NCBI RefSeq assembly: GCF_015482585.1
Contig: NZ_CP049742.1
Span: 1,322,501-1,386,500 of the forward strand
Origin: Mangrovibacillus cuniculi
GTDB lineage: Bacteria > Bacillota > Bacilli > Bacillales > R1DC41
DNA: 64,000 nt
Direction of reading: 5' to 3'
Shown here piece after piece: positions 24,128 to 56,942 of this stretch. The notes under the pieces are model-generated. The model was given only the letters and a program-made list of their open reading frames with translations. It searched no databases and was not told the DNA's origin. Position 1 is the stretch's first letter. Each line of letters opens with the position of its first letter. Made by a program: the position numbers and the translations under genes.

Positions 24128-24200
24128 AAGGATACTCAGTTAAGAATGGACGACATGACGTCGTCAACACAGCGTTGTTATTGTTCACGTAACAAAAAAA
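24128..24200 (+). repeat. Family A palindromic element
   Basis: Head AAGGATACTCAGTTAAG, hairpin GACGACATGACGTCGTC (24149-24165), tail TTGTTATTGTTCACGTAACA and an A-run that doubles as the T-tract of the hepT terminator. Compared with the copy at 49140, the hairpin arms change GACCAC/GTGGTC to GACGAC/GTCGTC, a compensated pair. The rest of the 317-bp gap between ndk and hepT shows nothing else I recognise. Confidence 0.8.
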
Positions 24201-24249: not shown

Positions 24250-25212
24250 CTATGATTTTCTCTTACCTATGTATAACGCAATGTCTTTGAGCGTCTTTTT
24301 TATTTTTTGATCCGGCAATCGGTCCACTACTTTTAGAGCTTTTTGTAAGTATGCCTGACTTACTTTGTAAGATTTTTCTATTGCGTCTGAGTTTTTGATT
24401 TTTTCAAGCACAACTTCTAATTGCTCTTTCGGCATATCTTCATAAATCGATTCTAAAAGCTCCGCAATTTCCTTATCTTCTCTAGCAAAGAGTACTGGTA
24501 ATGTGATATTTCCCTGTAGGAGGTCACCACCTGCTGGCTTACCGAGTTCCTTTTCCGTCGCGGTAAAATCCAGAATGTCATCAATAATTTGATAGGACAT
24601 CCCTACATAATATCCGTACAACCATAAATTACGATGTACATTTTTTGAAGCACCTGCTGCTATACCACCTAATTGACAACTTACGGCGATTAATAAAGCT
24701 GTCTTTCGCTTAATCCGCCTAAAATATGTTTTTACATGCTGGTCCATAACATATTTGTCTTTAATTTGTTCTACTTCACCTAAACAAACTTCTACAATTG
24801 TTTCTGCAAGTATTTTATGGGCTTCTTCGGACTCAATGGCAGACATATATTCCAAAGAACGCGCAAAAATATAATCGCCTGTATACATAGCAATTCTGTT
24901 ACCATGAATTGCTTTAATTGTTTTTTTTCCACGACGAGTCTCTGCATCATCAATTACATCATCATGTACCAAGGAAGCCATATGGATTAATTCTAGTGCA
25001 ACAGCAACATGTTTCACTTTTTCAATATCGTAATCCCCAAACTTAGCACTTAATAATACAAATACGGGTCGGATGCGTTTTCCGCCCGCTTGTATAAATT
25101 GTAAAGAAGCATCATTTAAAAGAGAGGAATTAGAACGTATAGCCATTTCTAGTTCTCGTTCTATAACGTCGATGTCAGACTTTAAGAACGAGTACATAAA
25201 TGATAGTTTCAT
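24250..25212 (-). CDS. hepT: Heptaprenyl diphosphate synthase component II
   Basis: Catalytic subunit that, with HepS, makes the C35 side chain of menaquinone-7. Trans-prenyltransferase fold with first aspartate-rich motif DDVIDDAETRRG near residue 85 and second DDILDFTATEKELGKPAGGD near 213. 320 residues. ATG start with AAGGAGGA. It follows menG by 12 nt; menG, hepS and hepT form the menaquinone side-chain and methylation cluster. Confidence 0.95.
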   Translation of the reverse strand: MKLSFMYSFLKSDIDVIERELEMAIRSNSSLLNDASLQFIQAGGKRIRPVFVLLSAKFGDYDIEKVKHVAVALELIHMASLVHDDVIDDAETRRGKKTIKAIHGNRIAMYTGDYIFARSLEYMSAIESEEAHKILAETIVEVCLGEVEQIKDKYVMDQHVKTYFRRIKRKTALLIAVSCQLGGIAAGASKNVHRNLWLYGYYVGMSYQIIDDILDFTATEKELGKPAGGDLLQGNITLPVLFAREDKEIAELLESIYEDMPKEQLEVVLEKIKNSDAIEKSYKVSQAYLQKALKVVDRLPDQKIKKTLKDIALYIGKRKS

Positions 25213-28048: not shown

Positions 28049-28140
28049 GTTAGTACAGGTTACATAATTAAGACATTCATCTAAGAGCTGACCACATCAA
28101 GTGGCTAACGATGAGTTGTTACTGGTCACGTAATAAAAAA
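28049..28140 (+). repeat. Family A element (long form)
   Basis: Aligns with the 31.0-kb unit: GTTAGTACAGG, CTAAGAG, hairpin GACCACATCAAGTGGCT, and tail GAGTTGTTACTGGTCACGTA, then an A-run that merges into the spoIVA terminator. The flanking stem reads ATTCATC/GATGAGT where the 49-kb copy has ACTCGGT/ACCGAGT, a multi-base compensated change. Confidence 0.75.
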
Positions 28141-29866: not shown

Positions 29867-30568
29867 TTATTTTTTTATTAATTGCGGTTCTCCATCACTA
29901 TTAATCTCCATAGGGAGTGCATAGGCTGGTGCTACCGGATGGGCTTGCGCCAAGGCATGAAGTGGATTCTCGCTTGTCTTTATTTTTTGATCTTCTTGCA
30001 TCATTTTCATTAAATCCGAGCGGTAATCTACTAAAATCTCTCCTTGTCCTGTTATGAAAAAGTCTAATGGTTGACCGGAATAAGGACTAATTACATAGGG
30101 AGGTTCCTCATAACCAATTTTATCGTACCGTAAACGATAGACGTTATGCGCAATTTCCTCTCCAAATGGAGGAAAACCTTGTGCTTGAATTCTAATCTTT
30201 ATAGTTCTAATGGTTTCTGCAATCCTTAAATCCACTACTTTAACAGTCGGATTATCTTCTACGTCAATTAAAACGTATTGATAGATTCCACCGTTTTCAA
30301 ATGCATTACCTGGAGCCTCTGCCATATATTTTGGTGCTAACAACATAAAATCTATCGGATATTTTATGTACGTCGGTGTCTCCATCTCTCGAGTTTTAAT
30401 AGGTAAAAGTCCACCGTTTTCTGCTTGATATTTGCTCACTGCCATTTGTACCGAAGCTAATTGGTCTTCGTACGGTATTTGGTTCTGAGCCAACTCACTA
30501 GTTGGATACATACACCCGGTTAATAAAGTTAAAAGCAGGAGAATAACAAGAACGTTCATTTTTTTCAT
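29867..30568 (-). CDS. yphF: Lipoprotein YphF
   Basis: Predicted membrane-anchored lipoprotein of 233 residues. Signal peptide with lipobox LLTGC, Cys at residue 19. The mature part is soluble, with a conserved-looking YQAENGGLLPIKT and IKYPIDFMLLAPKYMAEAPG. No enzymatic motif. Size and its place between spoIVA and yphE match B. subtilis yphF. Start ATG 30568 with AAAGGAGAAAA. Function unknown; sporulation linkage is only by neighbourhood. Confidence 0.8.
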   Translation of the reverse strand: MKKMNVLVILLLLTLLTGCMYPTSELAQNQIPYEDQLASVQMAVSKYQAENGGLLPIKTREMETPTYIKYPIDFMLLAPKYMAEAPGNAFENGGIYQYVLIDVEDNPTVKVVDLRIAETIRTIKIRIQAQGFPPFGEEIAHNVYRLRYDKIGYEEPPYVISPYSGQPLDFFITGQGEILVDYRSDLMKMMQEDQKIKTSENPLHALAQAHPVAPAYALPMEINSDGEPQLIKK

Positions 30569-30583
30569 TTGTTTTCTCCTTTC

Positions 30584-30787
30584 TTAACTCATTGTAGGTC
30601 CACTCATAACGATATAAAAAATTATTAGTCCGCTTGTTATAACGGATAAATACGCTAGAGCAGCTGTAATGCCTCTTAAGAATTTATTTTTAAATTTATA
30701 CCTACTTAAAAAGATTAAACCTATCGCTACAAACATAAGAACCATTGCACCGAAAGATATGTACATACGGAGCATTGCTGTTGACAT
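30584..30787 (-). CDS. yphE: DUF2768 small membrane protein YphE
   Basis: 67 residues with two transmembrane helices (about 8-27 and 39-61) separated by a basic RYKFKNKFLRG loop. Short length, topology and location before yphF match DUF2768. It begins with ATG; the gap to yphF is only 15 nt, so the two are co-transcribed. Function unknown. Confidence 0.78.
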   Translation of the reverse strand: MSTAMLRMYISFGAMVLMFVAIGLIFLSRYKFKNKFLRGITAALAYLSVITSGLIIFYIVMSGPTMS

Positions 30788-30904
30788 GCTGTTTTCTCCC
30801 CTTTGTGTCTCTTTTATATACTTGTCCAGTTCGTATTATAGCACAATTTTTACCTGTATGCGCCTTCATCTTAGGGATGAATCTGTTTGTTGTTTTATAG
30901 GGGA

Positions 30905-31160
30905 GATTGGGTTAAGAGCAGGTGACGTAACCGATACCACGCTAAAACCAAGCCACGTCACGTGGCTAACGCCTGGTAGTCGCGTCACGCGACCAACACC
31001 TGGTACTTGCGTCACAGATATTCCTTGGCCTTCGGATGGACACTCGGTTAAGTACAGGCCACATCACCGATACCACGCTAAGACCAAGCCACGTCACGTG
31101 GCTAACGCCTGGTAGTCGCGTCACGCGACCAACGCCTGGTGCTTGCATCACGCAAGCAAA
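30905..31160 (+). repeat. Family A element, expanded into two units of 27-nt-period hairpins
   Basis: Two copies of a roughly 110-nt unit, offset 136 bp. Each has hairpins at exact 27-nt spacing: AGCCACGTCACGTGGCT at 30951 and 31087, AGTCGCGTCACGCGACC at 30978 and 31114, then ACTTGCGTCACAG at 31005 or GCTTGCATCACGCAAGC at 31141. They are joined by AACGCCTGGT or AACACCTGGT. The TCA loop centre stays constant while stems vary by paired changes. No open frame here looks coding. The final hairpin abuts the terminator at 31158. Confidence 0.85.
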
Positions 31161-31202
31161 AAGGCTAAAGCAGGTGGGGCGTCACCCTCGCTTTAGCCTT
31201 TT
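31158..31202 (-). terminator. gpsA terminator
   Basis: AAAAGGCTAAAGC (31159-31171) pairs with GCTTTAGCCTTTT (31190-31202), T-run on both strands. It is about 100 nt beyond the gpsA stop; the stretch between (31203-31303) holds nothing I recognise. Confidence 0.85.
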
Positions 31203-31303
31203 GGACCCTACACCCTAACCCGCGATGGAAGTAGTGTATTCTTTATATCGTATTCCTTCGTAAGCGGTTTGCACCTGTTAAATGCCTACTTTAGAAAAAT
31301 CTT

Positions 31304-32341
31304 TTATTCTTTTGAGCTCCAAAGGTTGACAAGGTCCTCTAATTCACTCGTTTTAGTTCTTCCCATTAGAGCGTCAACAGCTTCTTTTGCAGATACCCCT
31401 TCAAATAATACAGAGTGCAAAGCATTGGTAATCGGCATGTTCACATCGTATTCTTTTGCCAGTTGGTGAGCAGCTTTTGTTGTACGAACTCCTTCTACTA
31501 CCATACCCATTTGGGATAAAACCTCTTCTAATGGCATTCCTTTTCCTAACATATTCCCCGCTCGCCAGTTTCGTGAATGAACAGAAGTACACGTAACGAT
31601 CAAGTCACCTATGCCAGTTAATCCTGAAAAAGTTAACGGATTTGCACCCATACGAGTTCCTAGTCTAGCTATCTCAGCTAATCCTCTAGTGATTAACGCT
31701 GCTTTTGCGTTATCTCCGTAACCTAATCCATCGGTAATACCCGCTGCTAGAGCAATAATATTTTTTAGCGCTCCACCAATTTCAACCCCAATTAAGTCCG
31801 GGTTAGTATACACACGGAAAGACTGATTCATAAATAGGTCTTGTACTTTTTCTGCAGCCTTCATTTCTTTCGAAGATACTGTCACTGTTGTGGGATGACG
31901 TAATACTACTTCTTCGGCATGACTTGGTCCTGATAAAACTACCACGTGTGCTGGGTGACTACTTGTATACTCTTCTTCAATCATTTCGGTAATACGTTTT
32001 AGACTATCAGGCTCAATTCCTTTTGAAACGTGAACTAAAATGACAGAACTATTAACATAAGCAGAAACCTCCTGCACTACCTGCCTAATCGCTTTGGTAG
32101 GAACAGCTAGTACAATGATCTCAACATCTTGCACAGCTGCTCTCATGTTATCAAATCCAATAATATTAGAAGAAAGAGTGACTCCTGGCAAATAACGTTC
32201 ATTTGAATGGTAATCGTTAATCTCTGTTACTTGGTCCATTCTATGAGACCAAAGTAGAACAGTATGATCATTGTCTGCAAGAACTAGCGCAAGAGCTGTT
32301 CCCCAACTTCCAGCTCCCAAAAGCGCAACTGTTTGTTTCAT
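31304..32341 (-). CDS. gpsA: NAD(P)H-dependent glycerol-3-phosphate dehydrogenase
   Basis: Makes sn-glycerol-3-phosphate from DHAP for phospholipid synthesis. N-terminal [19 protein letters not shown] near 110, [21 protein letters not shown] near 190 with the catalytic Lys, and GLGDLIVTC-like [11 protein letters not shown] near 240. 345 residues. ATG start with AGGAGGGG upstream; 20 nt after der, as in B. subtilis. Confidence 0.96.
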
Positions 32342-48632: not shown

Positions 48633-49246
48633 GACAAGAAAAGCTCCAGGCGCGCGATCAGCCGCGGCAGAAAAGTTTGGAAGACCGAGGAGGCAGCTCT
48701 TCAGCCACCGGAGGGCTTTCGGACTTTTCCGAGCGGTTGCGCACCTGGAGCTAGACACCAAGAAAAGCGAAAGGCGCGCGATCAGCCGCGGCAGAAAAGT
48801 TTGGAAGACCGAGTAGGCAGCTCTTCAGCCAACGGAGGGCTTTCGGACTTTTCCGAGCGGTTGCGCACCTGGAGCTAGACACCAAGAAAAGCGTAAGGCG
48901 CGCGATCAGCCGCTGCAGAAAAGTTCGGAAGACCGAGTAGGCAGCTCTTCAGCCAACGGAGGGCTTTCGGACTTTTCCGAGCGGTTGCGCACCTGGAGCT
49001 AGACACCAAGAAAAGCGAAAGGCGCGCGATCAGCCGCTGCAGAAAAGTTTGGAAGACCGAGGAGGCAGCTCTTCAGCCAACGGAGGGCTTTCAGACTTTT
49101 CAGAGCGGTTGCGCACCTGGAGCTAGACACTGCAGAAAAGGATACTCGGTTAAATACGGACCACATCACGTGGTCAACACCGAGTTGTTACCGGTCACGT
49201 AACAAAAGCTCCAGGCGCGCGATCAGCCGCTGCAGAAAAGTTTGGA
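48633..49246 (+). repeat. Family C tandem array, 124-bp unit, four full copies and a broken fifth
   Basis: AAGAAAAGC recurs at 48636, 48760, 48884 and 49008, exactly 124 bp apart. Each unit has GGCGCGCGATCAGCCGC, TTTGGAAGACCGAG, GGCAGCTCTTCAGCCA, CGGAGGGCTTTCGGACTTTT and GGTTGCGCACCTGGAGCTAG. Only unit 1 keeps the matching AGCTCCAGG arm; units 2-4 read AGCGAAAGG or AGCGTAAGG. The fifth copy is split by a family A element and then truncated. GC is far above the flanks. Short open frames through it repeat with the unit and are not credible genes. Confidence 0.92.
49140..49203 (+). repeat. Family A element inserted in the family C array (64 bp)
   Basis: GATACTCGGTTAAATACG head, hairpin GACCACATCACGTGGTC, ACACCGAGT (pairs with the head ACTCGGT), tail TGTTACCGGTCACGTAAC. 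Both sides carry AAAA, and the uninterrupted array unit at 48639 has one AAAA followed by GCTCC, which fixes the borders. Confidence 0.88.
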
Positions 49247-49264
49247 GATCAAGAAAGTAAAAAC

Positions 49265-56635: not shown

Positions 56636-56781
56636 AATCATCTCTAAGAAGCCAAGCAAAAAGACGAATTACAACTGAATTATTTAAGCGGCAACTCTGA
56701 AAGAAATAATGTAATAATTACTTCTAAAAAATCTGCATACTTAAATAAACCACATGTAAAGCGTTTTGCTTTGCGGCTACC

Positions 56782-56914
56782 TTCACCTTCTCCCATCCAG
56801 ACTATACTGTCGGCTTTGGAATCACACCAAATCCTGCTTCGAAAAGCTCGCGGGCTTAAGAGTACGTATACTCCTTACCGCCGGTCGGGAATTTCACCCA
56901 GCCCCGAAGGTGAA
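56782..56914 (-). ncRNA. FMN riboswitch (RFN element)
   Basis: Minus strand: P1 CACCTTC (56912-56906) pairs with GAAGGTG (56790-56784). The conserved GGGGCTGGGTGAAATTCCCG, ACCGGCGGTA, AGCCCGCGAGC and GGTGTGATTCC, then GACAGTATAGTCTGGATGG, are all present. FMN binding should stop ribU transcription. Confidence 0.97.
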
Positions 56915-56942
56915 TCGCTATTCATTTTTATCTTACACCCTT

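Follow-up and report, generated by a model that had tools for sequence, protein, structure and literature searches.

The question raised by this locus is what a tight series of hairpins is doing between two genes of Mangrovibacillus cuniculi, and how it came to be so regularly spaced. The hairpins lie at positions 30905-31160 of the 64,000-nucleotide stretch of DNA analysed here (the window), between gpsA (31304-32341, minus strand) and a yphF-like gene (29867-30568, minus strand). An earlier note had described two 110-nt units with six TCA-loop hairpins. Direct reading of 30301-31800 confirmed the exact 27-nt step within each block and found five intact hairpins; in the sixth, at 31005, ACTTGCGTCAC runs into AGATAT and the 3' arm is missing. 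AGCCACG-TCA-CGTGGCT occurs at 30951 and 31087, and AGTCGCG-TCA-CGCGACC, whose outermost pair is an A.C mismatch, at 30978 and 31114. The fifth intact hairpin, GCTTGCA-TCA-CGCAAGC at 31141, has A.C as its loop-closing pair. The two units are present as blocks of 114 nt (30902-31015 and 31038-31151), which form a direct repeat with 89% identity and a spacing of 136 nt. Since the array is one block duplication, its six hairpins are not independent cases. Neither a tRNA nor a riboswitch was matched in the array, and the open reading frame that runs into it (30669-31115, plus strand) has no support as a gene. The features of the array and of related copies in the window are as follows.

31158..31202, minus strand: intrinsic terminator of gpsA, a AAAAGGCTAAAGC...GCTTTAGCCTTTTT hairpin followed by a T-tract, assigned by pairing (hairpin before the T-run, z -4.4); the array comes directly next.
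31141..31157, minus strand: hairpin A of block 2, minus-strand sequence GCTTGCGTGATGCAAGC, assigned by sequence and folds.
31114..31130, minus strand: extra hairpin of the 27-nt module in block 2, minus-strand sequence GGTCGCGTGACGCGACT, assigned by sequence.
31062..31129, plus strand (Rfam strand): match of block 2 to Bacillaceae-1 (RF01690), 41.7 bits against a gathering score of 35.
31087..31103, minus strand: hairpin B of block 2, minus-strand sequence AGCCACGTGACGTGGCT, inside the P1 arms 31071-31078 and 31107-31114, assigned by sequence and model alignment.
31038..31067, minus strand: 3' half of another copy, starting exactly at the hairpin B loop, minus-strand sequence GTGATGTGGCCTGTACTTAACCGAGTGTCC (C1:1353567).
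30926..30993, plus strand (Rfam strand): match of block 1 to RF01690, 41.4 bits, with hairpins at 30951-30967 and 30978-30994, in the block repeat.
28069..28133 (outer limits approximate), minus strand: single copy behind the spoIVA terminator, placed at 28049 by the earlier note (C1:1350605).
24128..24193 (outer limits approximate), minus strand: single copy behind the terminator of a prenyl-synthase-like gene (24250-25212).
49134..49203, plus strand: match to RF01690, 38.1 bits, adjoining another dispersed repeat.

The hairpins belong to an already catalogued repeat family, Bacillaceae-1, that has been multiplied locally. Both blocks reach the Rfam threshold over the full model, as does the match at 49134, so the statement of the earlier note that no known element fits was wrong. 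The further copies that it had placed at 24128, 28049 and 49140 are real, and its modular, dispersed and compensated fold was borne out, with the qualification that the regular steps go back to a single family member duplicated in place. Bacillaceae-1 was listed as 'certainly RNA' in the paper that discovered it (PMC2864571), its strand has been called uncertain and CsrA binding has been proposed for the reverse strand (PMC4333381), and Rfam describes it as a candidate sRNA of unknown strand and function. The family found here is thus an already known one in variant form. The terminal-loop consensus RUCCU of the Rfam strand (AGGAY in reverse) is replaced by RTCAC (GTGAY in reverse). The copies also differ from the published motif in being flush with terminators, in forming tandem arrays and in pairing statistics that are unlike those of RNA; adjacency to rRNA genes is found again in relatives.

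We read the anatomy of the element from 111 distinct copies in M. cuniculi and related genomes. The same architecture, hairpin A followed by a P1 stem around hairpin B, recurs throughout about 30 genomes. The strand opposite to that of Rfam starts with hairpin A (loop NNGAY) and continues with one P1 arm, GTT and hairpin B, whose loop is of like kind; a few bases, TTA, the second P1 arm and TCCTT complete it. The loops vary by lineage, AGGAY being found in most genomes, ACGAY in some and GTGAY in M. cuniculi. In these terms the 27-nt step of the array consists of a P1 arm, GTT and a hairpin, and it recurs ahead of a single closing P1 arm.

The compensated stems noticed earlier were confirmed family-wide, far above chance. 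Among copies picked by loop and linker sequence, distinct P1 arm pairs were 90% Watson-Crick, compared to 49% (maximum 60%) when the 3' arms were shuffled. The corresponding values were 92% against 66% for hairpin B and 87% against 48% for hairpin A, the last figure leaning upward because only copies with 3 or more of 5 pairs were taken. Pairing of an RNA under selection should leave more G.U pairs than A.C mismatches on the transcribed strand. The cells of hairpin A, hairpin B and P1 together contained 1,648 Watson-Crick pairs, 13 G.T and 12 A.C, whereas a control set of 30 SAM riboswitches of the relatives had 829, 33 and 8, respectively. The ratio of G.T to A.C differed between the two sets with P = 0.026 and the G.T fraction with P = 3e-7, in counts where deviating cells are few, the copies are related and not independent, and the control consists of the riboswitches with the highest scores. 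Because G.T and A.C are about equal in these stems, unlike in the SAM control, the palindrome is apparently kept at the DNA level. The earlier claim that selection or copying acts on the fold thus leaves other readings open, and the lack of a G.U excess on either strand weakens a reading as RNA. These pairing statistics favour a palindromic DNA that is either maintained or merely copied, and compensated stems alone are no proof of RNA.

The element is abundant in M. cuniculi and patchy among its relatives. The array gave 43 DNA matches in its own genome, and the covariance model of RF01690 gave 31 at E <= 0.001, of which 24 exceeded the cut-off. In the 3.15-Mb genome, a regular-expression search of genome stretches turned up no fewer than 68 full copies, along with 6 3'-half remnants; these counts are lower bounds, as the search covered selected stretches. 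The 3' halves that start at the hairpin B loop always lie near a full copy and in the same orientation. Among 60 relatives of the same order, Rfam matches ranged from 0 to 68 per genome, with none in 31 genomes. Even within a genus the numbers differed widely (57 vs. 4 and 40 vs. 6).

Where do the copies land? We defined 61 copies in M. cuniculi strictly, 9 of which sit inside a longer hairpin repeat and 52 of which are plain. A T-run of at least 4 (T4-T8) was present upstream in 50 of the 52 plain copies, nearly always directly as TTTTG-TTACGTGA, and 42 had a hairpin directly before the T-run at z < -2, with a mean z of -4.2. Of the eight exceptions to this placement, five come after the end of a different hairpin repeat. 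Six copies have a structure like a T-box attenuator upstream, five of which were confirmed by Rfam as T-box leaders, so that the element stands between the attenuator and the gene under its control. Such placements are predicted by a rule based on terminator structure and not by one based on gene ends. This placement at terminators is specific to M. cuniculi; TTTT before hairpin A is rare elsewhere (2 of 90 copies). The window (49001-49250) and the loci L018, L020, L024-L029 and L031 also contain a dispersed repeat, GTCTAGCTCCAGGTGCGCAGATGCTCGGCAAACT...AGTTTGCTGCCGCATCTAAACGCGCGCC, that resembles a long imperfect hairpin; the nine embedded copies of Bacillaceae-1 lie in its loop region and other copies follow its TTTT end.

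Several copies in other genomes abut tRNA-Val (L053, L059), 5S rRNA (L052, L054) or the 16S leader (L043, L056). Each of these has its hairpin A side turned towards the structure, just as that side is turned towards the terminators in M. cuniculi. One relative (G042; L211-L218) has the element in place of a 16S-leader hairpin in 3 of 8 rRNA operons. In this genome both types of 16S leader, the one with the element and the one with the other hairpin, are flanked by short complementary arms beside the 16S start. These operons were tried as paralogous empty sites and set aside, as the element replaces another leader hairpin and is not a clean insertion.

Evidence that the element moves is indirect, and includes the patchy copy number. 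Of 18 named relatives, only one, Terrihalobacillus insolitus (L078, 2809-3030), carries a copy behind gpsA. That copy is independent of the array, reads the other way round and lies within a larger element that has TTCAAAAAGTC/GACTTTTTGAAC at its flanks; TTCAAAAAGTC flanks copies in a further genome (G007) as well. A base-level empty site was not obtained between two genomes of one genus; synteny is present, but DNA identity of about 70% prevents base alignment of the intergenic parts. One locus (G014, L157; C41:96889-98156) is built of tandem and nested half-units, first seven 5' ones of 43 nt and then five 3' ones of 20 nt. Their arms match in nested order, the four innermost pairs exactly and the fifth with one mismatch. 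Of the 111 copies, 2 have matching outer arms of a different type, compared to a mean of 0.24 and a maximum of 2 after shuffling, and one further nested case was read by eye in L002. The evidence for nested self-insertion is only suggestive.

We found no transposase for the element among the candidates examined, and no target-site duplications or terminal inverted repeats were recognised at the copy ends. The count of Y1 transposases did not track copy number (Spearman 0.15, P 0.25). Mobilisation by a RAYT found no support. The sole Y1 gene of M. cuniculi is RAYT-like (195 residues; L039 1234-1821, G000:C1:2436168-2436755) and adjoins another repeat family, not Bacillaceae-1. Copies of that different repeat, GGCAAGTCGCCGAAGCCGCGGAGAAGAGAG, lie just upstream of the gene, possibly as a REP-transposase pair; GGCAAGTCGCCGAAGCCGCGGAGAAGAGAG also occurs beside a Bacillaceae-1 pair in L003.

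Taken with placement and pairing, the array is best explained as a locally multiplied copy of a Bacillaceae-1 element that, in its own genome, is a dispersed and probably non-autonomous mobile palindromic DNA repeat, a reading to which we give somewhat better than even odds. We infer both the mobility and a copying enzyme. Copies would spread by a process at the DNA level that recognises, or is arrested at, stem-loops, the targets being terminators, tRNA, the ends of 5S and 16S, other repeats and the element's own hairpin B. The 27-nt and 136-nt steps may then be products of duplication or of self-insertion, with hairpin loops as the breakpoints. Of the three guesses in the earlier note, folded single-stranded DNA as the substrate of a mobile element comes close to the reading that the evidence favours. 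A bolder form of it, which we offer tentatively and hold to be rather improbable as a whole, is that all of Bacillaceae-1 are mobile single-stranded-DNA palindromes and not an RNA gene, that they target stable stem-loops at the foot (a terminator, a tRNA, an rRNA end or their own hairpin), that an enzyme copies them, and that loop recognition (AGGAY, ACGAY, GTGAY) shifts by lineage with this enzyme. Against this explanation stand the negative searches for a transposase, target-site duplications and a clean empty site, the lack of correlation with Y1 counts, the few nested arms and the restriction of terminator placement to M. cuniculi. In addition, the loop and the GTT and TTA boxes are kept across about 30 genomes, which implies recognition and may reflect a host factor.

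The view taken by Rfam is that the element is a structured small RNA or cis-acting RNA, made from Rfam's strand or its complement and present in many copies. The strongly compensated stems, the fixed loops and the listing in the discovery paper speak for it, as do the position of the element inside the transcription unit of rRNA operons in several genomes and the fold of the array, which as RNA is better than that of shuffled sequences (z -3.9). We still regard an RNA as unlikely. Its stems should not deviate equally to G.T and A.C when those of SAM riboswitches do not, and in M. cuniculi the element starts behind the T-tract of a terminator, where transcription should end. A functional RNA is also hard to match with a copy number that reaches 68 in some genomes and is zero in 31 of 61, or with absence from 5 of the 8 rRNA operons of G042. 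A special case of this view, that the strand opposite to Rfam's yields an RNA sponge for CsrA (PMC4333381), appears very improbable. Loops of the form CAGGAYG, close to the CsrA site, are found in most other genomes and CsrA is encoded in 57 of 61, but the GTGAY loops of M. cuniculi have no GGA despite its two CsrA genes, other genomes carry ACGAY loops, and G051, G052 and G033 have 10, 6 and 2 elements, respectively, with no CsrA match.

Nearly wobble-free palindromes with a fixed core and regular 27-nt spacing would also suit duplex DNA sites bound by a host protein that organises the chromosome or blocks transcription behind terminators, and GC skew indicates that 47 of the 52 plain copies are oriented along replication. 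This orientation is, however, accounted for by the terminator and, through it, by gene direction, and the 9 embedded copies show no bias (3 of 9). The free change of the stems would confine a fixed duplex site to the loop, and presence among relatives is patchy. We therefore consider such sites a doubtful explanation, less probable than an RNA although well ahead of the CsrA sponge.

A mobile palindromic repeat would have several known counterparts. The BOX elements of Streptococcus pneumoniae are likewise short, dispersed, intergenic and modular, with variable tandem inner modules, and are thought to be non-autonomous mobile DNA (PMC3049150); the likeness is one of description, and BOX has IS-like terminal inverted repeats, of which none were recognised in Bacillaceae-1. 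REP palindromes of the GTAG and CGTC types are also high-copy hairpin repeats with variable stems and uneven presence among species, and the CGTC type has no known transposase (PMC3733652). Bacillaceae-1 differs in its larger size, with two hairpins and an enclosing stem, in showing no GTAG or CGTC foot, and in not being the repeat beside the RAYT-like gene. The Bhal-1 repeat of Bacillus halodurans (74 bp, 36 copies; PMC2267715) is intergenic and folds, and may belong to the same family, again by description only. Group IIC introns insert after intrinsic terminators (PMC4424553). The same placement is found here, and the likeness is limited to this landing site, since the element is about 70 nt long and contains neither an intron ribozyme nor a reverse transcriptase; no group II intron was matched in the 64-kb window. 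If our reading is right, group IIC introns are joined by another element that uses terminators as landing sites, and Bacillaceae-1, so far classed as certain RNA and the subject of an open hypothesis of CsrA binding, looks instead like a DNA palindrome spreading at terminators and at rRNA and tRNA ends.

Two other RNA matches were obtained. An FMN riboswitch lies on the minus strand of the window at 56781-56915 (122.8 bits), and a RAGATH-18 RNA was matched in the genome of a relative (L099, 11367-11444, 63.5 bits).
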